64,000 nt of DNA. It comes from Amycolatopsis methanolica 239 (GTDB lineage Bacteria; Actinomycetota; Actinomycetes; Mycobacteriales; Pseudonocardiaceae). The stretch is from assembly GCF_000739085.1 (NCBI RefSeq), contig NZ_CP009110.1, positions 4,030,001 through 4,094,000 on the forward strand, given 5' to 3'. Below, in pieces: positions 4,175-19,742 of this stretch (its first letter is position 1; each line of letters opens with the position of its first letter). Both the position numbers and the translations under genes were made by a program. The notes under the pieces are model-generated. The model saw only the letters and a program-made list of their open reading frames with translations. It had not been told where the DNA came from and did not search any database.

Positions 4175-5116
4175 TCAGGCGAGCGGGCGGTCCCGCGCGG
4201 CGTCGCGGGCGAGCGCGGCCGCGCGGCGGTCCTCGAAGCGGGAGGCCTGCGCGTCGAGTCCCTTGAGGAATGCGGCGAGCTCGTCGCGGGCGGCCTCGCC
4301 GACCTGGCCCAGACCCTCCAGCTCGAAGACCTTCCAGTACCGCAGCAGCGGCATCACGACGTCGTCGTGGTGGATGCGCAGGTCGTAGATCCCCGCCTTG
4401 GCGATCAGCGCGGCCTTGCGCGCGAAGCTCGGGATCACCGCGCCCGGCATCGCGAAGTCGAGCACCTCGTCGGTGATCGCCCGCATCATCGCGTCCGGCG
4501 TGATCTCCAGCGCCGCCTTCACCAGGTTGCGGTAGAACACCATGTGCAGGTTCTCGTCCGTGGAGACCCTGGCCAGCAGTTTCTCCGCCAGCGGGTCCTG
4601 GGTGTAGCGGCCGGTGTTGCGGTGCGACAGCCGCGTCGCGAGTTCCTGGAACGACACGTAGGCGCAGACCCGCAGCAACGGCTTGTCCCCGCTGTCGTAG
4701 CCGGCCTGCATGGTTTCCATGCGCATCCGCTCCAGCTCCACCGGGTCGACGGCGCGGGTCACCAGCAGGTAGTCGCGGATGCAGATGCCGTGCCTGCCCT
4801 CCTCCGCGGTCCAGCGGTGCACCCAGGTCCCCCACGCCCCGTCCCGGCCGAACGCGCGCTCGATCTCCCGGTGGTAGCTGGGCAGGTTGTCCTCGGTCAG
4901 CAGGTTGACCTCCAGGGCCGTCCGCGCCACCGGCGAGACGCGCGACTGCTCGGGATCCCACGCCTCGCCACCCAGATCCGCGAAGTTCCGGCCCTCGCTC
5001 CAGGGCACGAACTCGTGCGGCATCCAGTCCTGGGCCGCGGCGAGATGGCGGTTGAGGTTCTCTTCGACCGTCCCCTCGAGGTCGTACATCAGGCGGGTGG
5101 TGTCGGAAAGCGTCAT
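4175..5116 (-). CDS. Acyl-ACP desaturase (DesA family, diiron)
   Basis: A 313-aa soluble desaturase (PF03405) that inserts a double bond into acyl chains carried on ACP or CoA, using O2 and reduced ferredoxin. The diiron ligands are visible in the paired motifs EEGRH (about residue 107) and DENLH (about residue 190), with the first helix glutamate in ALEVNLLTEDN. There is no membrane segment, as expected for the class. Start ATG 5116 is preceded by AAGGA at 7 nt; a GTG two codons earlier (5122) is possible. It appears monocistronic. Two TACG-centred inverted repeats lie directly upstream and suggest control by a TetR-type fatty-acid regulator that is not in the window. Confidence 0.92.
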   Translation of the reverse strand: MTLSDTTRLMYDLEGTVEENLNRHLAAAQDWMPHEFVPWSEGRNFADLGGEAWDPEQSRVSPVARTALEVNLLTEDNLPSYHREIERAFGRDGAWGTWVHRWTAEEGRHGICIRDYLLVTRAVDPVELERMRMETMQAGYDSGDKPLLRVCAYVSFQELATRLSHRNTGRYTQDPLAEKLLARVSTDENLHMVFYRNLVKAALEITPDAMMRAITDEVLDFAMPGAVIPSFARKAALIAKAGIYDLRIHHDDVVMPLLRYWKVFELEGLGQVGEAARDELAAFLKGLDAQASRFEDRRAAALARDAARDRPLA

Positions 5117-5147
5117 GCGCACGTCCTTCGGGAGCCGGGCAGGAACC

Positions 5148-5177
5148 TACGAATCCGTAACCTACGGTACCGTAGGT
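5148..5177. promoter_or_regulatory. Tandem TetR-type operators upstream of the desaturase
   Basis: Two related 12-bp sites, TACGAATCCGTA (5148-5159) and TACGGTACCGTA (5163-5174), are spaced 15 bp apart start to start. The second lies inside a perfect 18-bp palindrome, ACCTACGGTACCGTAGGT (5160-5177). They lie 32-62 bp upstream of the desaturase ATG, where a promoter is expected. Symmetry of this kind is typical of TetR-family dimers. The identity of the regulator is unknown. Confidence 0.6.
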
Positions 5178-5580
5178 ACTGGCAACGCACGAGCGCCCCG
5201 ATGGGTTCCCGAGGAGCCTCCCCTGGTGCCCCGTCACACCCCGCTCCTGCGCCGGTCGAGCCGACAACACACCCTCAGCACGGATGCCGGCCCTCCCCCG
5301 AGTGCACGCTCGGCTGGTGCCCGAGCCCGGGCTTCGAACCCAGCAGGGAGCCGAAGCTTCCGACAGACGCTTGGTGTCGAGACCACGAGGCCGTGCTATG
5401 GCGCCGTCGGCGTCGAGCACAACGCCACGTCGGAACCGTCATCGCCCGGCTTTTTGACGGCGTCCCACGGAACGGCTGGACAGTCGAAGTTGCTCACCGA
5501 GACCCATTCATCGAGTCGTCTGTCCTGGACTACCGATCGACCTTGTTGAGCCTCGCCGGGCAGGCAGAACGAGGCGCGTC
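5178..5580. other. Gene-free stretch with a tRNA-like 3' remnant
   Basis: About 400 bp without a convincing gene, at the left edge of the accessory island. On the minus strand, plus positions 5327-5343 fold as a 5-bp T-stem with the loop TTCGAAG, and CTCGGGCACCA follows. This resembles the T-arm, acceptor strand and CCA end of a tRNA-Leu gene. No matching 5' acceptor half (GCCCGAG) or anticodon arm is visible, and the acceptor spacing is one base too long. It is at best a remnant, possibly an old attachment site. Confidence 0.3.
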
Positions 5581-6651
5581 GTGTCCTGGCAGAAAGTGCT
5601 CGTCAACCGCCGTTGTGCGCTGACCGGAGAGTCGCATGAGACGGCGACAGCTGCGCTTCGCTCGAGCGTGTCTGCTCTACCCACTGCCCAGCTTGCCCGC
5701 CATCGCGCGCTCGTAACGAAACAGCAGGTCCCGTCCCCGTTCAACCTCGATCCCGAGGTTTCTCTCACAGTGCGGACGGCAGTGCTGCCGGACGCCATCG
5801 CGCGACCCCAGATCGACCTCGAAGCCGGCCTCATGGAGGCCATCACCCGGGCGGTCCATCATCTGCACACTCACCCCGAGGCCAGCTTGACCCGGCCAGC
5901 CGAGGTGATCCGATCAGTTACTCCCCTGCCAGATCGTCTGCAGCTTCACGTCCATCCGGTGGCGGTGGCACCGTTGTTGTACGAAACGCTCCCCTTCGCC
6001 TTTCAGGAAACGGTGTCAGGCATCGAGGGACTACGCATCCGTTCGCACCGGCGGTCGACGGAACTGTTCCTGGTCGACGCTCCGGACGCTCGAGTGGAAC
6101 TGGTCGGAGTGGGCAGGGCGGCACGCTGCGCCGCGGAGGCCTACCAGGCGGTGCGCAACCGCGACACGGACAGCGGTGTGTCTCTGGCCGACGTGACGCC
6201 GGACAGGCTCAGCCGAGAGGAAACGCTCTCGCTGGAATCCTCCGGCCGCGCCTTCGGCCCGGTGGGTCTCGCGAGCGGGCTCCTACGCCGGATAGGCGTG
6301 CTGTGCCAGACCTTGTGGATCCAAACCTGGCCGACCGGATGCACCCACTTCAACGTCGAGTGGCCTGGTGACACCCCACGCCGACCCCAGGTCGGTCTCG
6401 CGCCCGCAGACCCGGTGTTCGGGATCCGCGGCGCCACGATCGGGACTGCGCCCGACCTGACGTTTCCCAATACCCATCTCGGCTGTTCGCATGGCGATCC
6501 TTGCGCCACACAACATCTTCGGTTCCGGTTCACCGACCTCCCCAGCGAGGACTCCAGTTCGCACACGGCTCTCGCCGGATTCAAGGCCGGCGCTCGCCCG
6601 GCCTGGGACGCCTGGCGTGAGACGTTCGGCGACAGCTCCGGCGAGGCATAA
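5581..6651 (+). CDS. Hypothetical protein, 356 aa, island orphan
   Basis: I do not recognise this protein. It reads open from GTG 5581 to TAA 6651 and looks soluble, with no signal peptide or membrane segment. Its residue use is natural, with histidine-rich patches such as AVHHLHTHPEASL and LQLHVHPVAV and cysteines in PTGCTHF and LGCSHGDPCATQH that could bind metal. Codon use is less strictly GC-ending than in neighbouring housekeeping genes, in line with acquired DNA. It converges on the exonuclease gene with 57 bp between the stops. The start is uncertain because no strong ribosome site precedes the GTG; an internal start is possible. A role with the TerB/helicase operon is possible from position alone. 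Confidence 0.55.
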   Translation: MSWQKVLVNRRCALTGESHETATAALRSSVSALPTAQLARHRALVTKQQVPSPFNLDPEVSLTVRTAVLPDAIARPQIDLEAGLMEAITRAVHHLHTHPEASLTRPAEVIRSVTPLPDRLQLHVHPVAVAPLLYETLPFAFQETVSGIEGLRIRSHRRSTELFLVDAPDARVELVGVGRAARCAAEAYQAVRNRDTDSGVSLADVTPDRLSREETLSLESSGRAFGPVGLASGLLRRIGVLCQTLWIQTWPTGCTHFNVEWPGDTPRRPQVGLAPADPVFGIRGATIGTAPDLTFPNTHLGCSHGDPCATQHLRFRFTDLPSEDSSSHTALAGFKAGARPAWDAWRETFGDSSGEA

Positions 6652-6708
6652 CCACCAGGGGCAGACGGGAACGCACCCGCACGACGCCGCCAGATGCGGG
6701 CAACCGAC

Positions 6709-7959
6709 TTAGGCAGCCATCGGCAAGGATTGGAGAACCCGGAGGAACGCGTGTTCGTCGACGATGGGGATTCCGAGTTCCCGTGCTCGATTGGCCTTGC
6801 CGGACAGAGAGTCGGGGTCGGCGGCGACAAGGAGATCAGTTCTGCCGCTCACCGACCCAGTGATGCGCAGCCCGGCCGCCGCCGCCCGCTGCGTGATCTC
6901 AGCGCGGGCCAGCTGCATCTCGCCGGTCAGTACGACGCGGTCACCCGGCCGCATCGTGAGACCGCCGGGCGTGGCGACACCCGGCGAGGCGGTTCGAGCC
7001 CGGTCGGGCTGCTCCTCCTCCAGTACGGCCTCGACGAGGGCCGGATCGAGTCCCAGCAGAATGGCGACGGTGACCAGGTCGTGCCGTTCCTCGTCGGTGA
7101 TCACGTCGTCCGACCAGGCAGCCCGGGCGAGGTCACGCAGGTAGCTGTAGTGCGCGGCGAGCGCGTCCGCGCGGTGCAGCCCCAACTGGTGCGCCAACTC
7201 GATCAGAGCGTCGGCCTCCGAGGCCGAGATCCGGCGGTCCAGCAGGGCCGCGTCGAGCATCGCGAAGTAGGCGTCGACCTGCGGTTCGTCGTCGTGGGGC
7301 AGGCGTTCCACCAGCCGGGCCAGAAAATGCGGCTCGACCTGCCCGAGCGGTGTCCGGTGGGCCGGCGCGGCGGCACCACAGGGCAGGCTCGGCCATGCCC
7401 ACCGGCTGACTCGCAGCTGCTGCTCGGTGGTGCGCACCGCCTCCGGAAAGCGCTGGAGCAGGTGCGCGAGGAGCATTGCCGCTCCCATCGCGTCGTCGCG
7501 CGCGGTGTGCCAGTTCATCGGCGGCAGGCCGGCAGCCGTACAGCAGTCGATGAGTGACCGTCCGCGCAGCGGCATCGCGCGAGCCGCGGTCCGCATCGTG
7601 CACACCCCGGCGTCCGCGTCGAGGGGGCTGGTCACACCCAGTCGTTCGAACTCGGCGTGCAGGTGCATCGCGTCGAACGGCCAGTTGTGCGAGGCGACGA
7701 CGCGGCCGCGGAGAAGCTCGATCAGGTCGCCGGCGATGTGCTCGAACCTCGGTGCCCGCCGGACTTCGGCCGCACGGATGCCGTGGATGGCCTGCGGGCC
7801 GAGGTCGCGGTCGGGGTTGATCAGCGTGGTCCATTCGCCGGTGACCGTGCCATCGGGGTCGAGGTGGACCACCGCGATCTCGGCGACACGGTGGTGGAAT
7901 CCGGGCAGCAGCCCGGTGGTTTCGGTGTCGACGACGGCGAAGCCTCGCAATCCGTTCAC
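6709..7959 (-). CDS. DnaQ-type 3'-5' exonuclease with TerB-like middle and BRCT domain
   Basis: A 416-aa three-part protein. Residues 7-175 form a DEDDh exonuclease: D11 and E13 in VVDTETTGL, HNWPFDA with D96, and HTARDDA with H151 and D156. Residues about 225-310 are helical with acidic turns (LLDRRISASEADAL, WSDDVITDEERHDL) resembling TerB metal-binding repeats. Residues 336-412 are a BRCT domain (RVVLTGEM, SGRTDLLVAAD, KANRARELGIPIV), as in DNA ligases. It should trim DNA or RNA 3' ends and dock on a partner through BRCT. It is the last gene of the operon. The GTG start overlaps the previous stop by 4 nt, so translation is probably coupled. Confidence 0.85.
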   Translation of the reverse strand: MNGLRGFAVVDTETTGLLPGFHHRVAEIAVVHLDPDGTVTGEWTTLINPDRDLGPQAIHGIRAAEVRRAPRFEHIAGDLIELLRGRVVASHNWPFDAMHLHAEFERLGVTSPLDADAGVCTMRTAARAMPLRGRSLIDCCTAAGLPPMNWHTARDDAMGAAMLLAHLLQRFPEAVRTTEQQLRVSRWAWPSLPCGAAAPAHRTPLGQVEPHFLARLVERLPHDDEPQVDAYFAMLDAALLDRRISASEADALIELAHQLGLHRADALAAHYSYLRDLARAAWSDDVITDEERHDLVTVAILLGLDPALVEAVLEEEQPDRARTASPGVATPGGLTMRPGDRVVLTGEMQLARAEITQRAAAAGLRITGSVSGRTDLLVAADPDSLSGKANRARELGIPIVDEHAFLRVLQSLPMAA

Positions 7960-8660
7960 AGCGGCAGCACCTTCGCACTCGCGGTCCGCACCGCCGCCAG
8001 CCAGGACGGCGGGAGTGCCTCGGGTTCACCCAGCGCGTCCCGGACATAGCTCCGCCGGTTCTTGACCTGCTCGGTCTCGGTCCACAGCTGCACCAGCCAC
8101 CGCAGCACGCGCGCCACCGTTATTGCCTGGGCGCCGGCCGAGGCGCCCGGCCCCTTGCCGATGCCGGCGAGAGTGCGCACGCCTTCGACATCCCGGGGCA
8201 TCACGTCCGGCAGCTCGCGTGGCCAGTCCAGTGCGGCAACGTTCTTCCGCTCGGCACGCGCATTCTCCACCACGTCCTCGATGGACTGTCGTCGGCGCGC
8301 GATCTCTTCGAACACCCCGGAAGGGGCGAACACCTGGCGTCGCCACCACCCGGTCTCGGCCAGCCCGGCCGCGGTGGTGAGTTCGCCGACCACAGCGTCG
8401 ATCTCGTCCTCGCCCGGCGCGGTGATCGCACGGCGCTCGAGCAGCGTGGTCAGACGGCGTGCGGTCTCGGCCGAGGACCGGTACGACTGTCGTGTCTCGA
8501 TCCAAGCGCCGGTCGGCGCACCCTGGGGGCTGACATGCCAGATCGCGATCGTCTCGTGGCCTTCGTCGTCGTGACCACGTGCGACCACGACGCTGCCAGG
8601 TGCCCACAATTCGGCAACCGCCACCGGCAGCCCGTGCCCCAATTCATCGGTCTGTGTCAC
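7956..8660 (-). CDS. Hypothetical protein, 234 aa, in the TerB/helicase operon
   Basis: I do not recognise the family. It is soluble, with no signal or membrane segment. The N-terminal third looks like a small beta fold (GSVVVARGHDDEGHETIAIWHV). The rest is helical and charged, with a conserved-looking KNRRSYVRDALGEP near the C-terminus. GTG 8660 has GAGGA 13 nt upstream. It begins 9 bp after the helicase stop and its stop overlaps the exonuclease start by 4 nt, so it is made together with both. An adaptor or accessory subunit for the helicase/exonuclease pair is a reasonable inference and no more. Confidence 0.75.
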   Translation of the reverse strand: MTQTDELGHGLPVAVAELWAPGSVVVARGHDDEGHETIAIWHVSPQGAPTGAWIETRQSYRSSAETARRLTTLLERRAITAPGEDEIDAVVGELTTAAGLAETGWWRRQVFAPSGVFEEIARRRQSIEDVVENARAERKNVAALDWPRELPDVMPRDVEGVRTLAGIGKGPGASAGAQAITVARVLRWLVQLWTETEQVKNRRSYVRDALGEPEALPPSWLAAVRTASAKVLPL

Positions 8661-8669
8661 AGCCCGTCC

Positions 8670-10901
8670 TCATTCCATCCGATCCTGATGTCTTGTGGCC
8701 GTGAGAACCCGCGCCACCTTCACGGCCCCGGCGCAATCGAGGTCCGCCGCAGCGAACTGCTCCTCCAGCAGCGACTCGCCGATCCATTCGTCGAACTTCT
8801 CCTGCGCCTTGTTGACGACGGTCGCGGCGACGGCGCGCGGATCCGGCTCGGTTCCTTCCGCGAAGTCGGCCAACGCTGCCGCGGCGGCCTGTGGTGTGGT
8901 CCCGCCCAGGCGAAGCGCAGCGCCTTCCGCGGAGGCGTCGACTCCCCGTGTGTTGAGGACGTGCACCAAGGTGTTCAGAGTCCGGTCGCCGGTCCACGGG
9001 AAGACGATCGTGTCTGCGCCCTCGGCGAGGAAGGGGTAACTGTCGAGGTGCGATGAGGCGTACGCGCGCCGAGCCTGGCCGAGCAACTCCACGGAACGGG
9101 AGTCGAGGTAGGCCGGGACAACCACGTCTTCCAGCAGTTCCCGCATCCGAGTACGGATCTTTCCGTGCACCGAGCCGGAGGCTTCCCCGAGGAAGGTCGG
9201 CCTGCCTCCCGCTGCCGGCGCCAGTTCGACCACCTTGTCGGATTCGTGGACGGCCACGACTCGCCAGCGGCGGCCGGAGAAGACCAGCAGCAGCCCGTCG
9301 TACAGCGGCAAGCTGATGGGCATCGTGCCCAGTTGCTGTCCGGCGGACACGAGCCGGTATTCCTCCGGACTCCGGAACGCCGCGTAGAAGGTGTAGTGGT
9401 TGACAACAGATTCGCCACGCGGTCCTAGCAGCAGGGTGCCGTCGGCGCTCTGGACGAGCACCTCCTGACAGCCGAGGTCGCGGAGCAAGGTGGCGAACTG
9501 AGCGCTGCTGACCGCGGCGAAGGGGCTGCCCCGGCCGCACAGCACCCGGAACGCCTCGGCAGGTGTGGCCCCGCCGTGCTGGGCGATCAGCGACAGGAGC
9601 TGCTGGACGAGTGTCGACAGGTGCAGCCGGGCCTGCTCGGGTGGCTCGCACCAACGCTCCAGCAGGAGTTCGATGGCTGCGATGAACTGCACCAGGGGGA
9701 GCTGGAGGCGGTCGAGCGTGGTGGAGCGGGCGTCCGTGGCGACGGCGGAGACATAGGCACGCAGCACGGCCGCCTCACCGCGCCGCCCGGAGCGGCCGAG
9801 GCGCTGGCGCAGCGCGGCCACCGAAGGCAGTGGCCCAATCTGCGCGACCTGGGCGACGGCGCCAATGTCGATTCCCATCTCCAGCGTGCTGGTACAGATC
9901 GCCGTGGCGGGCCGGCTCGGATCGCGCAGTGATGCTTCGACGTCCTGCCGCAGCTCCTTGGCCAGGTTGCCGTGGTGCGGGTGGAACTCGTTGGGCACCC
10001 GTGCGGCCGCGGATCGGTCGGCGAGTTCGGCCGCGAACTGCTCCACACTCCTACGCGAATTCGCGAAGACCAGATTCGTGCGCCCGCGCAGAGCGGTGAA
10101 AAGATGATCGGCGATGCCGCGGACCGCTGTATCAGGTGTCTCGCCACCCGGATCGGGCCGGCGGGTGACGTAGCTTCGGAGCTGCAGCCGGATCTCCTGC
10201 CCGCCACCGGTGGACACCAGGACCGTGACCCGATCACCGCCGCCGGGGCGCAGCTGCTCTGCCGCCAGGCGCATGTCGCCGAGGGTCGCCGACAGCCCGA
10301 TGCGTGGCACATGCCGGCCGAGCGCGGTCTCCAGCCGATGCAGCTGCGAGAACAGCTGCGCGCCGCGTTCCGTTCCGATGAACGAGTGCAGTTCGTCGAC
10401 CACGACGTGGCCCAGGGCCGCGAACAGCCTGCGGATCGCCGGCCCGCGCAACACGAACAGCGCTTCCAGCGACTCGGGGGTGATCAGCAAAATGCCGGAC
10501 GGGTTCTTCAGCACCGCCTGTTTACGCGACGCGGCGACGTCGCCGTGCCAGCGGTGTGTCGGGATGTCCAGACTTCCGCAGAGTTCCTCGGTTCGCCGGA
10601 ACTGGTCGTTGATCAACGCCTTGAGCGGGCCGACGTAGAGTGCCTGGGCCCCCGAACCGTTCGAGGTTCCCTGCTCCACCAGCGCCGAGCACACGGGCAA
10701 GAACGCCGCCTCGGTCTTCCCGGCCGCCGTCGCCGCGCCGATCAGCACGTCGTGCCCGTTCAGCACGGCAGGGATCGCCGCGTCCTGCACATCACGGAGC
10801 TCGGACCATCCCTGCTGCCAGACCCACCGCTGCACCCGTGGGTGGAGAAGATCGAAGTGCGCCGCCTCAGATGCGGAGGCTGGCGAGCTCATCGGCACCA
10901 T
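8670..10901 (-). CDS. Lhr-like superfamily 2 DEAD/DEAH helicase
   Basis: A 743-aa ATP-dependent helicase. Walker A is GAATAAGKTEAA (residues 55-66), motif II is DELH (169-172), motif III is SAT (204-206), and the second RecA domain has TSTLEMGIDIG (338-347) and motif VI QRLGRSGRRG (366-375). TSTLEMGIDIG and DELHSFIGTERG place it near Lhr and the BREX helicases rather than RNA DEAD-box enzymes. The C-terminal half lacks an obvious cysteine cluster, so no DUF1998 zinc site is seen. The start overlaps the upstream ATPase gene by 35 bp (ATG 10901, or 26 bp with ATG 10892). It probably remodels or unwinds DNA loaded by the BrxD-like ATPase. Confidence 0.92.
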   Translation of the reverse strand: MVPMSSPASASEAAHFDLLHPRVQRWVWQQGWSELRDVQDAAIPAVLNGHDVLIGAATAAGKTEAAFLPVCSALVEQGTSNGSGAQALYVGPLKALINDQFRRTEELCGSLDIPTHRWHGDVAASRKQAVLKNPSGILLITPESLEALFVLRGPAIRRLFAALGHVVVDELHSFIGTERGAQLFSQLHRLETALGRHVPRIGLSATLGDMRLAAEQLRPGGGDRVTVLVSTGGGQEIRLQLRSYVTRRPDPGGETPDTAVRGIADHLFTALRGRTNLVFANSRRSVEQFAAELADRSAAARVPNEFHPHHGNLAKELRQDVEASLRDPSRPATAICTSTLEMGIDIGAVAQVAQIGPLPSVAALRQRLGRSGRRGEAAVLRAYVSAVATDARSTTLDRLQLPLVQFIAAIELLLERWCEPPEQARLHLSTLVQQLLSLIAQHGGATPAEAFRVLCGRGSPFAAVSSAQFATLLRDLGCQEVLVQSADGTLLLGPRGESVVNHYTFYAAFRSPEEYRLVSAGQQLGTMPISLPLYDGLLLVFSGRRWRVVAVHESDKVVELAPAAGGRPTFLGEASGSVHGKIRTRMRELLEDVVVPAYLDSRSVELLGQARRAYASSHLDSYPFLAEGADTIVFPWTGDRTLNTLVHVLNTRGVDASAEGAALRLGGTTPQAAAAALADFAEGTEPDPRAVAATVVNKAQEKFDEWIGESLLEEQFAAADLDCAGAVKVARVLTATRHQDRME

Positions 10902-12195
10902 CGGTGTCGGGACCGGACTCGCCGGGCAGCGGAGCCAGATCAGGGTTGGTCTCGACGCTGACCCTCACCTGCCCGAGCAGCTCCCGCCAGTCGGTTCCAG
11001 GATTCTGCTCGAGCACGGCGAGCAGGTTCACGAACTCCTTGATCGTGTTGCGCGGCGTCCGGAAGTAGGCGTCACCGATCCGGCCCGCGCAGTGCTCCAT
11101 GAACGCGCCGAGGGCGTCGTCCGGAAGCAGGTAGGACGACGGGTCTCCGCCGGCATAGACGTGGCGGAGGCGTTCAAGCAGGACATGCATGTCCTCGGGG
11201 GTGAGGCTCGCCAGCCGCAGCACGGGTCCGGAGAGGTCGACCAGGCCGCCGACCGCGAAGTTGTTCTCCGCCAGGCGGCTGCGCAGGGCCTCGTAGCTGT
11301 ACAGCCCGCGACGGGTGTCCATCAGCAACTCCGGCGTGCCGCCGAAACAGAACCCGAGCCCTTCGACGTTGCCCTGCAGACAGTCGTTGACGATGCGCAG
11401 GACCTGCTCGTAGTTGGAGCGGCGAGCACCGGTGTGCGCCAGCTTGTAGAGGTTCACCATCTCGTCGAGGCACACCAGAAGCCCGGTGAACCCCGCCAGC
11501 CGCACGAACCGGGCGACGAGCTTGAGGTGGTCGTAGACGTTCGCGTCGTCGACGATGGTCCGGACGCCGAGCGCGGCGCGGGCTTCGGTGCGGGTGGCGA
11601 ACTCGCCGCGCAGCCAGCGCACCGCATCGGTCTTGAGCTGCTCGTTGCCGGTGTCGTGGCCCGTCCAGTACGCCCCGATGACCTGGGCGAAATCGTACCC
11701 GCCGACGCTTTCCGACAGCTGAGCCAGCTTGTCGGCGATGACCGCCCGCGGTGAGCGGTCCGACGCGGACGCCTCCTGGATCGCCGACGTGATGAACCGT
11801 TCGACGATGCCCGGCAAGGCGTTGCCGTCCGGAGTGGAGCGCGTGGCGAGGTTGCGCATCAGCTCGGCGTAGAGCGCGCGAGCCTGCCCGCCGCTGGCGT
11901 GCAGGCGCCGGTCCGGGGTGAGGTCGGCCGAGGTCGTGACCAGCTTGCGCTCGGCCGCGATCGACCGGACGAGGTTGAGGAAGAACGTCTTGCCCGCCCC
12001 GTACTCCCCGATGACGAAGCGCACGGCCGAACCGCCGTCGGCGATCCGGTCGATCTCCCGCCGCATCGCGACGACCTCGGAGGCCCGGCCGACCTGGATG
12101 TGCTGGAAGCCGGTGCGCGGCACCACCCCGGCACGCAGGGCGGAGACGATGGCGTCCCGGTCACGGGGGCGCAGACGAGCGCCGGAAGCGGTCAT
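10867..12195 (-). CDS. BrxD-like P-loop ATPase (DUF2791 family)
   Basis: A 442-aa ATP-binding protein. Walker A is GEYGAGKT (residues 63-70) and Walker B is LLVCLDEM (D244, E245). The pattern RTGFQHIQVGRASEV at the start and YFRTPRNTIKEFVNLL near the end match the DUF2791/BrxD family, known from BREX type 2 phage-defence loci and from TerB-linked DNA-processing clusters. It is probably an AAA-type loader or switch for the helicase. The ATG overlaps the TerB gene stop by 4 nt. No BREX core genes (pglZ, brxC, methylase) are present, so this is not a BREX locus. Confidence 0.88.
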   Translation of the reverse strand: MTASGARLRPRDRDAIVSALRAGVVPRTGFQHIQVGRASEVVAMRREIDRIADGGSAVRFVIGEYGAGKTFFLNLVRSIAAERKLVTTSADLTPDRRLHASGGQARALYAELMRNLATRSTPDGNALPGIVERFITSAIQEASASDRSPRAVIADKLAQLSESVGGYDFAQVIGAYWTGHDTGNEQLKTDAVRWLRGEFATRTEARAALGVRTIVDDANVYDHLKLVARFVRLAGFTGLLVCLDEMVNLYKLAHTGARRSNYEQVLRIVNDCLQGNVEGLGFCFGGTPELLMDTRRGLYSYEALRSRLAENNFAVGGLVDLSGPVLRLASLTPEDMHVLLERLRHVYAGGDPSSYLLPDDALGAFMEHCAGRIGDAYFRTPRNTIKEFVNLLAVLEQNPGTDWRELLGQVRVSVETNPDLAPLPGESGPDTDGADELASLRI

Positions 12196-14458
12196 TGCAG
12201 TATGTCCTTCGCGATATCGTGGTTGATTTCGAGGGGATCCTCGCCCTCGATGAGAAGCTCGTCGGTGGCATCCAGCGCGGCTTCGTTGAGCACCTCGAGC
12301 GCACCGCCCGGCAGCAGGGCGAGCGCAACGGCCAGGTCGTCGAACTCTCCTCGAGTGACGGTGTCCTTCTCGACGAGCTGCCGGAGAAGGGTGGTGTGGG
12401 CGGCGTCGAGTTCCGCTGCCGTCGCCTGGGCCGCGACCGGTGGTGGCGCGGGGACCGGCTCCGGTTCCTCCGCGAAGATCTCCGCGAGCTCGGCCGCCAC
12501 GGCCGCGGATTCCGCGCGCGTCCGGGCGAGGCGAGCGGGATCCAGGGTCAACGTAGCCGTTCGCTCGGGTTGCGCGGGGATTGCGCGCCCGGCGGGGGTC
12601 GCTCCGGGGAGCCGGACGGAGGTGAGCTCGTCCGGTTCCCCGGCCACGACGGTGGCGTGCAGCGTGGAGTAGACGTCGTTCGGGTCCAGTCCCAGCTCGC
12701 GGAACAACTTCTCCAGGGTCCTGACCTCGTCGGGAGTCACCCTTCCGTCTGCCGCGGCGATCGTGGTGAGAAGCCGGCCCACGTCGGCGCGGTGCTCGTC
12801 GGGGAGCACGCTGAGACGGCGGCGCAGCGCAGCCGCGGTGGGTGGCTTGGTCAGCACGAGCGCGGCGTGGGCGTCCAGCCGGATCCGCTCGTCGGTGCTC
12901 AGGTCGAGGCCGCTGAAGGCCAGGTCGCGCAGTGCTGCACGCTCGGGTTCGGTGACGGTGCCGTCCGCGGCGGCCACCAGCGTGCCAAGGTTGATGATTG
13001 CCAGGGCGGTGCCGTACCGCGGTCCCGGGGCGCTGACCGGCTCTTCTCCGCGGCGGAACACCACCACCGAGGAGGTCGGCGTCGGCACGCCACCGCCAAA
13101 CCGGACGTCCGGCTCAATCCCGAGCCCCCGCTTCTCCAACAGCTGCGCCACGGCCACCGCGTCGGCCCTGGCGAGCTTGCCGGTGATGGTCGGCCAGCGC
13201 TCGATCAGCTCCTGCGCTGGGACGACCGAGCGGCCATTGTCGTCGATGCCGCGCGCCGCCCAGGACCAAATCGCTCGGTCCGTTCATCTGCCCGATAGCT
13301 GACGCCCTTGGGCAGCAGGGCGACCGCGGCCGGGGAGCCGGTGTCGCCCGGGTGACGGCCGAGGTGCCTGCTGTAGGCGTCCAGATCGTCGGTGACCGCT
13401 TCGATCAGATCCCGGAGTTTCGTGACCGGCCCGGTCAGCTTGCCGACATCGGGCAGGTTCGGGTTCTCCAGCTTGACTTCACCGCCGAAGCCGCCGCTGG
13501 CCGGGAAGTAGCGGCTGCTCAACCGCGTCTTGTTGGGCTTGACGACCAGGCCGTCGCCGAACCGCTCCTGGTAGCGGGCCGTGAACAGCTCGTGGAACTC
13601 GTCCGGGCACCGCTGCGCGGGGGTTCGCAACCGTGTCTCGGGGTGGTGGGTGTACCAGGCCAGTGCCCAATCCGCAGGCAGCGGCCGGCCGGCGGCCACC
13701 AGTTGCCCCAACCCGAGCCGGAGTTCGGCCGGCAGTTCGTAGGTCCACTCCGGAAACGCCGGCGGCGGGCCGTTCCAGCGCGCGGTGGGGTCGAGGATCG
13801 CGACACAGTCCAGAAGGCTACTTGCGTACTGCTCGAACGAGCGGTTCCCCCGGTAGATCCCCAGCAACCGACGCACCTCGCCGGTCAGCAGGCGGAACTC
13901 CGCTGCGGGGTCCGGTGTGCCTGGGAGTTCGGTGAGCAAACGGCGTTCCAGGCCGTAGAAGTAGACGAAGACGTAGCCGATGTAGGCGCGCGGATTGCTG
14001 CGACCACCGGCGAGCCATGCCAGATACGCGGCGCGACCGCGGGGTGAAATGTCCGAATAGGACGGCCAGTAGTCCATCGTCTCGCCGGTCCAGTCGGGAC
14101 GCGCGCCGTCCACAGGCAGCGTGGGATCGATCAACGCCGGCTCGACACCATTTCCGGCCGCATCGGCCATGCTGCGTCCGAGGTACAACATGCCGCCACG
14201 GATAACGAGGCCTGCGACCTTGACGTCCCGTCCGGCCGGCACCCATTCCGCGTAAGACAGTGTCGCGGCCGGAAGTGCCGGGTACCGCTGGATGGGCGGC
14301 ATCGCCGCAACCGGCGCACTCACCTGCGGCGGCGGATGGACTGGCTGAACTGCCCGATCACCGCCGACAACCGGCGCGGATCGCGCGGATGCCCGCTTTC
14401 TCCGAATCAGCCAGATCACCAGCGCAAGCACCAGCAAGATGACGACAGCCAGCGCCAA
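12192..14458 (-). CDS. TerB_N-TerB membrane-anchored protein, interrupted by a frameshift
   Basis: First gene of the operon. TTG 14458 is supported by GGGGAGG 5 nt upstream. One transmembrane segment (residues 1-17, ALAVVILLVLALVIWLI, then RRKR) is followed by a TerB_N domain (PF13208-like; YAEWVPAGRDVKVAGLVI, SYSDISPRGRAAYLAWLAGGR, YIGYVFVYFYGLERRLL). The frame then closes at 13205. Another frame, open from 13283, continues the same protein: AIWSWAARGIDD, a TerB domain with two ADGxVTxxE metal-binding motifs (AAADGTVTEPERA, AAADGRVTPDEV) and a TerB_C-like tail ending in EINHDIAKDILQ. A one-base error or a genuine shift near 13275 separates the halves. It probably senses a signal or metal at the membrane and tethers the complex. 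Confidence 0.82.
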
Positions 14459-14710
14459 CTGGACCTCCCCGCGATCGATTCACCTGACCATCGCCGAGAT
14501 GCGGGCCGGAGTTACCGGCGTTACATGATCGTCACCGATCTCGATCTTGACAGGCGCTTCCCGAATCCCATCGGAATGTGGGAATTGATGACAAGTCCGC
14601 ACTCTGCACCACCGCCGAGCGAATCCGTTTCACTCACTTGCACCTACTTCGATGACGAAATCGTCACGGGTCCGGGGCACGGGTAACGGCGGCACTGACA
14701 ATGACGAACG
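14459..14710. promoter_or_regulatory. Divergent promoter region of the TerB operon and the 640-aa gene
   Basis: A 252-bp gap, visibly richer in A and T than its surroundings, that must drive both directions. It contains TTGACA at 14547-14552 on the plus strand with only a weak -10 match downstream. It also has a perfect inverted repeat TGACGA-AA-TCGTCA at 14653-14666. A further copy of TCGTCA-like sequence lies near 14530. These could bind one regulator that controls both sides. No regulator gene is in the island. Confidence 0.4.
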
Positions 14711-16633
14711 GTGCTTACGCCAGCCTTTGCAAGCCGCGAAAAGGGTGAAGCAGAATTGACAGCTGATTCTGACTCCGCGCATCGATTCGAGGAAATTCCT
14801 TGGCCCTGCCTGAAGCCCTACATGTCGGTCACCGTTCTGCGCTGCATCGGGGACGACCCCGCGTTCGGCTTCGGAACCGTCGTCCGGCTCCTCAAGAAAC
14901 CGCGACGACATCGGCCAGGGGCCGCCCTGCACACCATCGCCGAGACCGAACTGGACGCCGCCTCAGGCGATGTCATCGCCGGCTTCGACACGTTGACCGG
15001 CCTCGAGATCGACCAGTTGTTCGGCCAGGTGAACGTTCAAGCGAGTCCACCCGGCTGGGCCCTGCCGGGATCCGGCTTCACCGACTTGACGCACGAGCTC
15101 ACACTGGTCCTCCGACGTGGTGAACTGATCGCCGTGCGCGCCGAGAAAGGCGTGGCAGAGCGCCTCCAGAGACAGCTGGACAAACCGCCGCGACCACCGC
15201 TTCGTCGTCTTCCCACCAACGTCCTGGAAGCAGCCTTCCTCCAGGGCGCCGCGAAAAACATCTGGCTTCGGTCGGTCCAGCGACCCAGCTCGCGCCGCCC
15301 CTACAGCAAAGCACTGGGCGGAACCGATCTCGGCGTCGCACTGGATCCCGTGGAGGACAGCTCGTTCGCGTGGGGAGCAGCTCGCAGCGAGATGCTCGAA
15401 GACCCAGGTATCCTCTACCTCAAAGGCAAGGTGGGTGTCACCGCAGGCAAATCACAGATCTGGTTCAAGGACTCCACCGACTTCCACCAATACCTCCTCA
15501 CGGTGGGCGAAATCCTGCGAGTGTCCTCCGAAATCCTCACCGATCCTGGCATCTTCTCGGCATTCCCCGGCCTTGCCCAGGAAGTCAGCGATCCTGCCGA
15601 GATTTCCGGTGCGTACGAAGTGATCCCGATTCAACCGGACGAGACACCAGAAGCGACCAGCGGAGGCGACGAAGTCGTGGCGGCAGCCGAACTCCTTCAG
15701 GACGCGGTGCTCGAGGTCCGGGAAGGTGCTACCGGAACGAGGTTCACCATGGATGTCGGACTCGAGGGCGCCTCGAGCGGCCGGCTTGCCGCGAGCCTCA
15801 ACCGCGTCGATGACCGCTTCGTGCTCAGCATCGGGTTCGACCGCACTGCGCCCCAGCCACTACCAGCCGCGGAGCAGATTCTCGGCGCGCTGAACAGCGG
15901 TGACATGCTCGAAGTCCACTTCGGCTCCGGACACAAGTACTCGGCGGGCAAGGTCTGGAAGCAGAACTTCAGTCCGATCCCGTTTTCCGGCTGGTTGTGG
16001 GAGGACTTCGACGGCTACCGGATCACCAGGGAGAAGCCCGCCGGCGCCGAAGGGGCCCAAGCCATCCACGACGCCATCCACGAGAACGGTGACGACTCCC
16101 TGTTCGCCTGGATCGTCGACTACTGTTCCGAAGGATGGCTGCTCTGTGACGACAGTTCAGGGGAAGCGGCCGACTTCTTCCATCTCGACGCGGACAACCT
16201 GCTCCGGATCTTTCACGTCAAGGCATCGTCGAACAGCTCCCCTCGCCGGGGCGTGAAGGTGACCGACTACGAGGTCGTGGTGAGCCAGGCGCTGAAGAAC
16301 CTGACGTACATGGATCGGCGCAAGCTGATCGGCCGCCTCAGCCGTCCCTCACTCGCCGATCCGGCAAGCTGGATCGACGGCGATCGGGTTCACGACAAAG
16401 GAGCCGGCTTTCTGGAGAAGCTCGAAGCCGCCGGAGCACAGGGGCGGACCGAGGTGGTGATCGTGCAACCCAATCTCAGCAGAGGGCGGTACCGACAGCT
16501 GACTGCGGACATCGAGGCCGGCATTGTCTCCCGGGACACCCTGCGCCTGCAATTGCTCGAGATGCTGTTGAAGACCGCGCGACTGGCCGCAGTCCGGTAC
16601 GTCACCGATCTGACGGTGATCGGCAGCGGCTGA
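14711..16633 (+). CDS. 640-aa island protein with a possible PD-(D/E)XK nuclease segment
   Basis: I do not recognise the full-length family. The protein is large and soluble. Residues about 468-530 run WIVDYCSEGWLLCDDSSGEA, then ADFFHLD, IFHVKAS and YEVVVSQALKNL. The order acidic residue (D480/D481, E485, D488), strand, then K504 in HVK followed by a QA.KN helix resembles the C-terminal PD-(D/E)XK-like domains of restriction proteins. The middle acid before the lysine is replaced by His-Val. Residues about 575-605 (GRTEVVIVQPNLSRGRY) form another strand-loop. The start is uncertain: GTG 14711, or TTG 14756 preceded by AAGGGTGAAG. It is divergent from the TerB operon and is the likely effector if this is a defence island. 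Confidence 0.7.
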   Translation: MLTPAFASREKGEAELTADSDSAHRFEEIPWPCLKPYMSVTVLRCIGDDPAFGFGTVVRLLKKPRRHRPGAALHTIAETELDAASGDVIAGFDTLTGLEIDQLFGQVNVQASPPGWALPGSGFTDLTHELTLVLRRGELIAVRAEKGVAERLQRQLDKPPRPPLRRLPTNVLEAAFLQGAAKNIWLRSVQRPSSRRPYSKALGGTDLGVALDPVEDSSFAWGAARSEMLEDPGILYLKGKVGVTAGKSQIWFKDSTDFHQYLLTVGEILRVSSEILTDPGIFSAFPGLAQEVSDPAEISGAYEVIPIQPDETPEATSGGDEVVAAAELLQDAVLEVREGATGTRFTMDVGLEGASSGRLAASLNRVDDRFVLSIGFDRTAPQPLPAAEQILGALNSGDMLEVHFGSGHKYSAGKVWKQNFSPIPFSGWLWEDFDGYRITREKPAGAEGAQAIHDAIHENGDDSLFAWIVDYCSEGWLLCDDSSGEAADFFHLDADNLLRIFHVKASSNSSPRRGVKVTDYEVVVSQALKNLTYMDRRKLIGRLSRPSLADPASWIDGDRVHDKGAGFLEKLEAAGAQGRTEVVIVQPNLSRGRYRQLTADIEAGIVSRDTLRLQLLEMLLKTARLAAVRYVTDLTVIGSG

Positions 16634-16917
16634 TGCCGCCGTCCTGCAGACGCAGGGTCGCGGAGAAGTCCGAGTTGCGGCGCTGCGCCCACGGCGGCCG
16701 TCGTCGCAACCGTTCTGGCATTGCCAGCAGTTGACCTGATCAGCGTCCCGATGCAGCCACGGGCCTGGATGCAGCGCGAAGCCAGCGCGCTGACCTATTC
16801 CGGCTCGTTGGAGTAGCCAGGTTCGGCGCGCCGCGTTCCCGGCGGGGCTTCGCCGCGGCTCGTTCGGGCGACATCTGTCATACGGTGCTGCGGCCGCGGC
16901 ACAGCGCGGACAGCGTG

Positions 16918-17463
16918 CTACTCGTGGGTCCAGGTGCAGCCGCCGGAGAGTTCGAGGAACTCGCCGCTCTTGACGGTCACGCTGGTCGGCCCTTGCACGA
17001 GGCCGTTGGCGATGATGGCGCTGAAGTCGCCGGAGTCGTTGCTGTTGCGGGACCAGTAACAACCGAAGGAGTCCCGAGGACCCGCGGTCTTCCACCGGCC
17101 GGCCTTCGCGTCGGTGCCGATGCGGTGCACACCGTCGCTCAGGGTGCCATTGCCACCGGATCGAGGAGCCGCCGGGGCGGCGGACGAGATCACGGTCCGC
17201 GTCACGGTCTCCTGTGGGGCGGTGACGGTGCTGATGATCGTGACCGGCGCGGCCGTGGTCGCCGAAGCGGGCACGGTCACCGTGCGGGTGATGGTGGTCG
17301 GCGCTGCCGCGGCCGTCTGATCGACGGCCGGGCGCTGGACGGTCGCGCTTGCCGCGCCTACACCGGCGAGGAACGCGGCAACCACGCCGACGATCCACGG
17401 CCAGTGCCTCCCGGCACGAGTGCTGGCTGGGTTTTCGGGCGCAGGCGGAATCGGCTGGCTCAT
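16918..17463 (-). CDS. Membrane-anchored secreted protein of unknown function
   Basis: A 181-aa protein. A short cytoplasmic proline-rich start (PIPPAPENP) precedes one transmembrane helix (about residues 20-42, WPWIVGVVAAFLAGVGAASA). A low-complexity Thr/Val/Ala linker (TRTVTVPASATTAAP and similar) follows. The C-terminal 70-residue domain has two cysteines (FGCYW, GGCTW) and the pattern DGVHRIGTDAKAGRWKTAG, common in extracellular domains of actinobacterial proteins. The two cysteines probably form a disulphide. Start ATG 17463 follows GGAGAAAG at about 10 nt. It stands alone between the island and the LacI gene. Confidence 0.82.
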   Translation of the reverse strand: MSQPIPPAPENPASTRAGRHWPWIVGVVAAFLAGVGAASATVQRPAVDQTAAAAPTTITRTVTVPASATTAAPVTIISTVTAPQETVTRTVISSAAPAAPRSGGNGTLSDGVHRIGTDAKAGRWKTAGPRDSFGCYWSRNSNDSGDFSAIIANGLVQGPTSVTVKSGEFLELSGGCTWTHE

Positions 17464-17622
17464 GGCAGAGGTTCTTTCTCCGGTATTCGCGGAACCGCCG
17501 GGGGCTGCTGACACGGTCTTGGTGAACGGTGCCTCCGCGGTTGACCGGTGTTCGCCGTGTCTCTACCCGGAGTCGGCTGCCACCCTCCCCGAGTTACAGA
17601 CCAAGCCGTTCCCGCGACGCCG

Positions 17623-18672
17623 TCACGTGTGCGCCGGTCCGGTGGAGCGCCGCGGGATGAGGGTGGGTGTGGCGACGAGCGTGCGGGGCTGCTCGCCGCG
17701 GGAGGCTTCGCTGAGCAGTTCCAGCGCGCCGGCCGCGATCTGTCCGAACGGGACGCGCACGGTGGTCAGCGGCACGGGCAGGCGGCTGACGATGGGGATG
17801 TCGTTATAGCCGACGATCGACAGGTCCTCGGGCACGCGCAGCCCGAGCGCGTGGGCGGCGGCCATCACGCCGATGGCGGTGTTGTCGTTGACGGCGAAGA
17901 TCGCGGTGGGCCGGTCCGCCCGGTCCAGCAGGTCCCGGCCGGCGACCTCGCCGGATTCGATGGAAAACGCGTCCCCGGCGACCAGCCGGTCGTCGAAGCC
18001 GATCCCGGCCTGGTCGAGGGCTTCGCGGTAGCCGGCGCGCCGTTCCCGGGCGCTGGAGGCGTAGCCGGGGCCGCCGACCAGGCCGATGCGCCGGTGGCCG
18101 AGGTCGAGCAGGTGCCGGACGGCCAAGTGCGCCCCGAGGCGGTCGTCGCCGACGGCGGCCGGGCCGATGCCGTCAGTGCGCAGGGCCAGCGCGTGCGGCA
18201 CGTCCCGCGCGGTGGGCGTGCCCAGCCGCGCCGTGGTGAGGATCAGCCCGTCGACGCGACGGCGCACCAGGGTCTGCACCGCCAGCCGTTCGGTGTCGGG
18301 CTTGTCCTCGGTGGTGGCGACGATGGCGAACATCCCCCGGGCGCCCGCGGCGGCGGCGATCTCCTCGTAGAGCATCGCCATCACGGTGTCGGTGAGCCGG
18401 GGCACGATCACGCCCACCGTGTTGGTGCCCGCCCGGCGCAGCCCCGAGGCGAGCGGGTCGCGCACATAGCCGAGCTCGGCCGCGACCCGCCGCACCCGTT
18501 CGGCGGTGGGGCTGTTGGAGTGCGGCAGCCGCTCGTCCAGGACACGGGACACGGTGGACTTGCTGACCCCGGCGGCCCGGGCAACGTCGAGAATGGTCAC
18601 CACGGGGGTCAGGCTACTGGTCGGCGAGGACTTTCCGGACTCGCTGTTGACGGCGGGAGGCATGTGGCGCAT
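17623..18672 (-). CDS. LacI-family transcriptional regulator
   Basis: A LacI/GalR repressor. The helix-turn-helix reads TILDVARAAGVSKSTVSRVL, with the hinge helix following at PLASGLRRAGT. The periplasmic-binding-like effector domain is complete (TNTVGVIVPRLTDTVMAML, IGLVGGPGYASSARERRAGY, IFAVNDNTAIGVMAAA, VGYNDIPIVSRLPVPLTTV). ATG 18672 is used; ATG 18663 or GTG 18603, just before the helix-turn-helix, are alternatives because no start has a clear ribosome site. It is divergent from an aldolase/transporter pair. The LacI-type palindrome between them indicates that it represses that pair and perhaps itself, released by a sugar-acid-like inducer. Confidence 0.92.
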   Translation of the reverse strand: MRHMPPAVNSESGKSSPTSSLTPVVTILDVARAAGVSKSTVSRVLDERLPHSNSPTAERVRRVAAELGYVRDPLASGLRRAGTNTVGVIVPRLTDTVMAMLYEEIAAAAGARGMFAIVATTEDKPDTERLAVQTLVRRRVDGLILTTARLGTPTARDVPHALALRTDGIGPAAVGDDRLGAHLAVRHLLDLGHRRIGLVGGPGYASSARERRAGYREALDQAGIGFDDRLVAGDAFSIESGEVAGRDLLDRADRPTAIFAVNDNTAIGVMAAAHALGLRVPEDLSIVGYNDIPIVSRLPVPLTTVRVPFGQIAAGALELLSEASRGEQPRTLVATPTLIPRRSTGPAHT

Positions 18673-18677
18673 TCTAT

Positions 18678-18689
18678 GGGAACGTTCCC
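18678..18689. promoter_or_regulatory. LacI-type operator
   Basis: GGGAACGTTCCC is a perfect 12-bp palindrome with the central CG typical of LacI/GalR sites. A second, imperfect half-site (CAACCGTTCCCAG) follows at about 18691. It lies between the divergent LacI gene and the aldolase gene, 43 bp upstream of the aldolase ATG, so binding would cover the promoter. Confidence 0.7.
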
Positions 18690-18732
18690 GCAACCGTTCC
18701 CAGAACACGCCGACGAGAAGGAGAACTTCGAG

Positions 18733-19644
18733 ATGACACTGGATCTCCGTGGCCTCAACCCGGCGCCGGTCACCCCGTTCACGCCGGACGGCGAGGTGGA
18801 CCACGCCGCGATGGCGAAGCTCGGCACCTGGCTGGCCGGGCACGACGGCGTGAAGAGCCTGGTGATCCTCGGCCACGCGGGCGAGGGCACCTTCCTCACC
18901 CAGGAGGAGCAGGTCGCCACCATCGCCAACCTGGCCGAAGCCGTGGACATCCCGGTCATCGCCGGCATCACCGGCGAGGGCACCGCGGTCGCGGTCGCCG
19001 AGGCCAAGCGCGCCGTCGCCGCCGGCGCCAAGGCCGGGCTGATCTACCCCTCACACGGCTGGCTGCGCTTCGGCTACCAGGCAGGCGCGCCGCAGGACCG
19101 CTACCGGGCGATCTACGAGGAGTCCGGGCTGCCCTGCATCCTGTTCCAGTACCCGGACAACACCAAGGCCACCTACGACCTGGACACCCTGCTCGAGATC
19201 GCCGCGCAAGACGGCGTGTTCGCCACCAAGAACGGCGTGCGCAACATGCGCCGCTGGGACACCGATGTCCCGGTGCTCCGCCGCGAGCACCCCGACCTGC
19301 AGATCCTGTCCTGCCACGACGAGTACCTCCTGCACACCATGTTCGACGTCGACGGCCTGCTCGTCGGCTACGGCGGCCTCGCCCCCGAACCCCTGCTGGA
19401 GCTCATCGCCGCAGGCAAGGCCCGCGACTACCCCGCCGCCCGGGCCGTGCACGACCGGCTGCTGCCAGTCACCAAGGCCGTCTACCACCGCGGCTCGCAC
19501 ATGGAAGGCACCGTCGCGCTCAAGCTCGGCCTCAAAGCGCGCGGCATCCTCGAGCACGCCGGCGTCCGCTCCCCGCTGATCGACCTCTCCCCCGAGGCCG
19601 AAGAGGAGATCGTGCAGGCACTCAAGAGCGCCGAACTCGTCTGA
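18733..19644 (+). CDS. DapA-family aldolase/dehydratase
   Basis: A 303-aa class I lyase of the dihydrodipicolinate synthase/N-acetylneuraminate lyase superfamily. The barrel carries HAGEGTFLT (the GxxGE substrate loop), the general-base tyrosine in FQYPD and the Schiff-base lysine in FATKNGVRN. It therefore forms a lysine imine with a 2-oxo acid such as pyruvate. Pairing with a LacI regulator and an MFS carrier points to catabolism of a sugar acid or aromatic aldol adduct rather than lysine synthesis. ATG 18733 follows AAGGAG at 10 nt. The exact substrate cannot be read from sequence. Confidence 0.88.
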   Translation: MTLDLRGLNPAPVTPFTPDGEVDHAAMAKLGTWLAGHDGVKSLVILGHAGEGTFLTQEEQVATIANLAEAVDIPVIAGITGEGTAVAVAEAKRAVAAGAKAGLIYPSHGWLRFGYQAGAPQDRYRAIYEESGLPCILFQYPDNTKATYDLDTLLEIAAQDGVFATKNGVRNMRRWDTDVPVLRREHPDLQILSCHDEYLLHTMFDVDGLLVGYGGLAPEPLLELIAAGKARDYPAARAVHDRLLPVTKAVYHRGSHMEGTVALKLGLKARGILEHAGVRSPLIDLSPEAEEEIVQALKSAELV

Positions 19645-19656
19645 GCTCCACTCGCG

Positions 19657-19682
19657 TCCCGGCGGCGGCCCGGCCGCCGGGA
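19657..19682 (+). terminator. GC-rich hairpin after the aldolase gene
   Basis: TCCCGGCGGC and GCCGCCGGGA form a perfect 10-bp stem with a 6-nt loop, 12 bp after the aldolase stop. There is no T run, so it may only attenuate read-through into the MFS gene. Confidence 0.5.
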
Positions 19683-19742
19683 CCGGCGACAATGTTGTCC
19701 CCACGACTCCGCACCGCGGCGGAGGGCGAGGAAACGAAACCC

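Follow-up and report, generated by a model that had tools for sequence, protein, structure and literature searches.

A Shango defence core packed with a DUF6218–exonuclease pair in Amycolatopsis methanolica, and exonucleases fused to the Shango helicase in other Actinomycetota

Introduction

Shango is a named anti-phage system that consists of a TerB protein (SngA), an ATPase (SngB) and a helicase (SngC), and the sections of the Shango literature available to us assign no effector to it. In one report, SngABC from Pseudomonas aeruginosa PA14 gave a modest, 10–100-fold reduction in the plating of many phages, and anti-phage activity is also cited for Escherichia coli (PMC10250203). Hna is described in abstracts as an anti-phage 3'-5' exonuclease with an ATPase site (PMC13381803, PMC12345164). 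Here we describe a Shango locus of Amycolatopsis methanolica 239 in which two further genes, one of them encoding a DnaQ-type exonuclease, are packed behind the helicase gene. It lies in a stretch of 64,000 nucleotides, hereafter the window, which covers positions 4,030,001–4,094,000 (forward strand) of contig NZ_CP009110.1, the single contig of a 7.24 Mb genome. All coordinates refer to this window.

The original prediction for this DNA, made from the sequence, had described five tight minus-strand genes (14458 to 6709) as a DNA-processing, perhaps anti-phage, system with parts outside any named system. This was right in outline, and the packing is confirmed. However, the frames number six, as the TerB protein is read in two, and because SngABC is Shango, the core belongs to a named system that went unrecognised. 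What does lie outside Shango is an exonuclease–TerB–BRCT protein (EXO) and its neighbour, DUF6218.

The Shango core

Judged by matches to the PADLOC models for SngA, SngB and SngC, all three of which were found, the core of the operon is Shango (Table 1). The BrxD-group P-loop ATPase and the helicase that had been predicted are SngB and SngC, with Pfam matches to the BrxC/BrxD-type ATPase (2.7e-152) and DEAD helicase (4e-30) families. SngB is the single match in the genome at E ≤ 0.001, and SngC adjoins it. Across the best 80 loci of a genome scan, which span many phyla, SngB is 61–85% identical to the window copy. The minus-strand frames run in the order SngA (two parts), SngB, SngC, DUF6218 and EXO. 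Overlaps join the C-terminal SngA part to SngB (4 bases, 12192–12195), SngB to SngC (35 bases, 10867–10901) and DUF6218 to EXO (4 bases, 7956–7959), while SngC and DUF6218 are 9 bases apart. G+C content at third codon positions is 0.76–0.91 across the eight frames of the locus, which is coding-like.

The membrane-anchored TerB_N–TerB protein of the original prediction is present in its domains, with TerB_N, TerB (4.3e-13) and TerB_C (9.1e-23) following each other over two frames, although it is one protein in relatives. Set against the intact, single-protein SngA of loci L081, L097, L036 and L098, homology changes frame near position 13274, and both halves are ~64% identical to the intact L081 protein. 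The other frames of the locus show no stop or frame change within their family matches. The N-terminal part begins with a hydrophobic segment (mean Kyte-Doolittle 2.99 over 19 residues), which is probably a membrane anchor.

Variants of the Shango layout were seen elsewhere. Locus L111 has two consecutive SngA frames ahead of SngB (4892–9992), and in L218 a JetD-like (Wadjet) gene on the opposite strand comes straight after Shango (13001–14287).

Table 1. Features of the locus, in window coordinates, with the matches (E values) or observations on which each assignment rests
Feature	Position	Strand	Basis
Variable island holding the whole feature	5231..17624		both flanks align in relatives G358 and G440
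356-residue protein	5581..6651	+	no family match above cut-off; 8 homologues besides its own
EXO: DEDDh (DnaQ-type) exonuclease + TerB-like + BRCT	6709..7959	-	RNase_T 1.3e-17; BRCT 1.3e-6; PDC-S48 5.8e-159
DUF6218: predicted DEDDh-like fold without catalytic residues, probable pseudo-exonuclease	7956..8660	-	Pfam DUF6218 1.7e-86; structure model
SngC: superfamily 2 (DEAD/Lhr-like) helicase, no fused exonuclease	8670..10901	-	PDLC03960 1e-262
SngB: BrxC/BrxD-type P-loop ATPase	10867..12195	-	PDLC03959 8.9e-178
SngA, C-terminal part (TerB + TerB_C)	12192..13157	-	PDLC03958 1e-42, model 303-525
SngA, N-terminal part (hydrophobic N-terminal segment + TerB_N)	13205..14458	-	PDLC03958 8.7e-48, model 30-270; TerB_N 5.1e-54
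640-residue protein, encoded divergently, with a C-terminal domain resembling PD-(D/E)XK	14711..16633	+	27 homologues besides its own; conserved motif; weak fold matches

The DUF6218–exonuclease pair

The predicted fusion of a DnaQ exonuclease, a TerB-like domain and a BRCT domain is borne out in EXO by the Pfam matches at either end. In the middle, the Pfam TerB-like match is just 0.82, and the TerB-like call is supported by an hhalign comparison with the TerB region of SngA (probability 93, P 3e-7, 34 columns). EXO has the catalytic residues of a DEDDh enzyme (D11, E13, D96, H151 and D156). This D, E, D, H, D set is complete in all 17 window-type exonucleases that are paired with DUF6218, the window copy included, a count that omits six more distant exonucleases.

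The 234-residue protein encoded ahead of EXO had been taken for an unknown, and is in fact a member of a named Pfam family, DUF6218. A literature search for this family found nothing. DUF6218 was found in 30 of the 249 Pseudonocardiaceae genomes drawn, and in a class-wide draw of 296 genomes, one other of which belongs to the family of the window genome, in the window genome only. Plasmids, phages and viral contigs gave no match, the viral scan being made with one peptide pattern that hit four stretches, none of them a relative.

DUF6218 frequently has an exonuclease for a neighbour. Counting the window and 29 further loci, a DnaQ-type exonuclease adjoins DUF6218 or lies within ~1 kb of it in 22 of 30 genomes, mostly without Shango. 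This is the window-type exonuclease in 17 cases (split over two frames in L079) and another DnaQ-like exonuclease in five. In L068, L069, L071, L075 and L082, DUF6218 stands near a different DnaQ-like subfamily on the opposite strand, and in L071 a further match lies on the same strand. Shango stands beside the DUF6218–EXO pair in the window and in genome G512 (locus L081) only. L081 also carries, at 10259–10987 on the opposite strand, a gene for an Mrr-like restriction endonuclease whose N-terminal part is hydrophobic.

The structure model of DUF6218 has a DEDDh-like overall fold and lacks the catalytic residues, so that DUF6218 is probably a pseudo-exonuclease. Among 50 DUF6218 sequences, no aspartate is invariant or nearly so; the conserved acidic residues are glutamates, of which E197 is invariant and E75 and E195 nearly so. 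The first strand is without the D-x-E motif. Profile comparison of DUF6218 with EXO gave no significant match (probability 3.6), and comparison with the exonuclease domains alone gave P 0.0028 and a probability of 11 over 16 columns. The best hmmsearch scores between DUF6218 and exonucleases were 11.1 and 10.2 bits; the controls (1938, shuffled or reversed; 1552 reported) reached at most 7.0 bits.

Exonucleases fused to SngC

An association of exonucleases with Shango recurs in Actinomycetota through fusion to SngC. A profile built from window-type exonucleases was used to search the SngC frame behind the helicase, and a DEDDh exonuclease was found fused to the SngC C-terminus in 20 distinct actinobacterial Shango loci. 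These comprise two of six regions of the class sample (L034 and L035), nine of the 19 genome-scan loci titled as Actinomycetota (L102 among them being truncated at a contig end) and ten of 14 further Pseudonocardiaceae loci, after removal of L212, which duplicates L120. As the scan took the best 80 of at least 527 confirmed relatives, these counts are not population rates. The 249-genome draw held 18 Shango genomes at E ≤ 1e-60, two of which reached only ~290 bits; among the 16 with full scores, the fusion is found in ten, the separate pair in two and neither in four.

Of the 21 fused rows, L212 included, 17 have the full catalytic D, E, D, H, D set. Three of the remainder have E as the third residue, and L127 is without two residues. 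In six fused SngC proteins, judged by eye, the exonuclease profile extends into the TerB-like stretch. The other 61 loci of the best-80 scan include 57 with an SngC frame, none of which is fused; none extends more than 37 residues past the helicase match, although contig ends truncate several of them and one (L110) is split. No title or abstract on an SngC–exonuclease fusion was found in a literature search that covered part of the journals.

Fused and unfused loci also differ in SngA. With L100, L109 and L220 skipped and the window excluded, a strong hydrophobic SngA N-terminus, sought between 150 residues upstream and 60 residues downstream of the match start, was found in none of 20 fused and seven of 12 unfused Actinomycetota loci (Fisher p 2.4e-4, relatedness ignored). 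One fused locus, L132, has a hydrophobic segment (2.65) far upstream of its SngA match in the open frame, outside the counted region. At the same threshold, the segment is present in 32 of 54 loci outside the Actinomycetota set (eight skipped). This pattern suggests a trade between the SngA membrane segment and the exonuclease fusion.

In the SngC tree, the window groups with L081 and L097 (support 100/99) inside a fusion-free set of nine rows (100/96), and the fusion label changes six times by gain or loss, at least four of these changes being forced by well-supported branches. In the EXO tree, the 17 window-type rows paired with DUF6218 group together in a single clade (100/98), separate from the fused enzymes. 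From the trees, exonucleases of this general type thus seem to have joined Shango more than once. Origin of the window EXO by fission of a fused SngC–exonuclease is unsupported; as the window SngC and EXO both lie outside the fused groups, the arrangement probably did not arise by splitting of a fused protein. Nested among the fused loci on the SngC tree is L123, in which an unfused SngC is followed by a 2022-residue frame with several helicase domains (13788–19853).

Neighbouring genes and the island

The 640-residue protein encoded divergently from the operon had been noted for PD-(D/E)XK-like spacing, and may indeed have a PD-(D/E)XK-like nuclease domain at its C-terminus. Its aligned homologues conserve a GExADF...HxK...Q pattern in the C-terminal part. 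For the same part, fold comparison gave weak matches to PD-(D/E)XK nucleases, which came after unrelated hits of the N-terminal part in the ranking. A full-length Foldseek search with the model gave no usable match. The gene occurs in 28 of the 249 Pseudonocardiaceae genomes, in some as fragments, and in three of the 16 Shango genomes of this family (G000, G351 and G394), adjacent to Shango only in the window (G000). It is not a conserved Shango partner, contrary to what had been proposed. The 356-residue protein belongs to a small family, and its three named homologues are from Amycolatopsis.

The whole feature sits in a 12.4-kb island. Two close relatives, G358 and G440, carry ~1.7 kb of other DNA at the same site. 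The flanks align at ~94–97% in both, with borders that differ by 5–15 bases between the two, and in G358 the desaturase gene next to the island is 99% identical to the window copy and the LacI gene 97%. Just within the left border, a 29-base tRNA-like 3' end with a CCA terminus was found (5315–5343, minus strand). No second copy was found in the genome at up to three mismatches, and ARAGORN found no tRNA; we therefore claim no integration mechanism. Outside the island, an Rfam ASdes small RNA (RF01781, 64.6 bits against a gathering score of 40) lies at 4734–4801 on the plus strand, antisense to the gene for a fatty acid desaturase (4178–5122).

How the locus may work

Our leading reading, which we put forward tentatively, is that of a Shango system with a probably membrane-anchored SngA, to which the DUF6218–EXO pair contributes the nuclease function in trans. 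SngC, driven or licensed by SngB, would open DNA at a site recognised or held at the membrane by SngA, and EXO would degrade the exposed strand in the 3'-to-5' direction. DUF6218 would be the inactive partner of EXO, either binding the substrate or restraining the enzyme, and TerB–TerB contacts would tie EXO to SngA. The system would in this way both sense and degrade DNA.

Several observations weigh against this reading. The packed SngABC–DUF6218–EXO operon was seen in the window only, and the sister Shango locus L097 is without the pair within the 21 kb examined. By profile, no exonuclease was found near DUF6218 in eight of the 30 cases (L070, L074, L078, L089, L092–L094 and L096, the last a DUF6218 fragment only). 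The sequence similarity of DUF6218 to exonucleases is marginal, so that the claim of homology rests on the predicted fold. Since the paired exonucleases form a clade of their own and the window SngC falls in a fusion-free one, the window and the fusions look like separate recruitments. No fusion was seen outside Actinomycetota, and Shango therefore does not need one. Finally, the frame split of SngA may have left the window copy without activity; it could be a mutation, an error of sequencing or a regulated (programmed) frameshift.

It is also quite possible that two independent modules share one defence island and, by chance, a transcript: an ordinary Shango and a self-contained DUF6218–EXO pair with a role in defence or DNA repair. 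The pair mostly occurs without Shango, no gene of which was found in the 11–20 kb around 15 of 16 further loci with DUF6218 and the window-type exonuclease. The exception is L081, from the same genus, and there the opposite-strand Mrr-like gene parts the two modules, between SngC and DUF6218. Ten neighbouring frames scanned in eight pair loci were mixed and include HsdM and SMC/SbcC-type ATPases (L073, L087) as well as metabolic genes, and the separate clade of paired exonucleases fits as well. However, only nine bases part DUF6218 from SngC in the window, EXO and SngA have the TerB domain in common, and the same kind of exonuclease is fused to SngC elsewhere. A decaying, non-functional island, with SngA broken and the rest drifting, would account for the switch of frame and is an unlikely explanation: the SngA halves remain close to the intact L081 protein, the other frames match their families uninterrupted, and a sequencing error would look alike. 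A new seven-gene system that includes the 640- and 356-residue proteins is highly improbable. All its genes lie in one island that two relatives lack at this site, and the 640-residue protein is nuclease-like, but gene orientations diverge, the 356-residue family is small, and the seven genes were together in no other locus examined. We reject it on the distribution of the 640-residue gene among Shango genomes.

Extending the leading reading, in which the pair supplies the nuclease arm, one may ask whether the destructive arm of Shango is generally a DEDDh 3'-5' exonuclease. In Actinomycetota it would come in two packagings. In one it would be fused to SngC, and SngA would be soluble; in the other an active exonuclease would work in trans together with DUF6218, its catalytically dead counterpart, and SngA would be anchored in the membrane. 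This generalisation is rather doubtful. If it is true, DUF6218 would serve a defence system as a pseudo-exonuclease subunit, of a sort that, to our knowledge, no named system contains. In either case, the helicase–exonuclease fusion in 20 distinct loci offers a concrete and testable idea of how Shango may act on DNA, and DUF6218, a family of no known role, gains a predicted fold and a frequent neighbour.

Comparison with known systems

BREX (bacteriophage exclusion) is related to the core through SngB, which resembles BrxD (5.2e-47), and SngC, which resembles BrxHI (5.8e-116). Both score better as Shango, and SngB reaches 156 bits against the BrxD equivalog cut-off of 350, so BREX was rejected as the identity of the locus. 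BREX core genes include pglZ and a methylase. No other BREX core gene was named among the eight locus proteins scanned, the rest of the genome not having been searched.

EXO resembles PDC-S48, the name of a PADLOC candidate, over nearly its full length. PDC-S48 is listed there as a single gene; here EXO shares an operon with Shango and DUF6218.

Hna and exonuclease-DinG likewise bring together an ATPase or helicase and a 3'-5' exonuclease, although they belong to other protein families and their abstracts mention neither a TerB protein nor a BrxD-type ATPase (PMC13381803, PMC12345164). As these systems combine the same two activities, an exonuclease–helicase mechanism for Shango is plausible, but only by analogy.

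Shango itself has the same A-B-C order, with TerB_N, TerB and TerB_C in SngA, the SngB ATPase and the SngC helicase. The window locus differs in that SngA is read in two frames and that DUF6218 and the DEDDh exonuclease–TerB–BRCT protein are packed after SngC. The core is known; the link of an exonuclease to Shango and the nature of DUF6218 are new, as far as the literature search shows.

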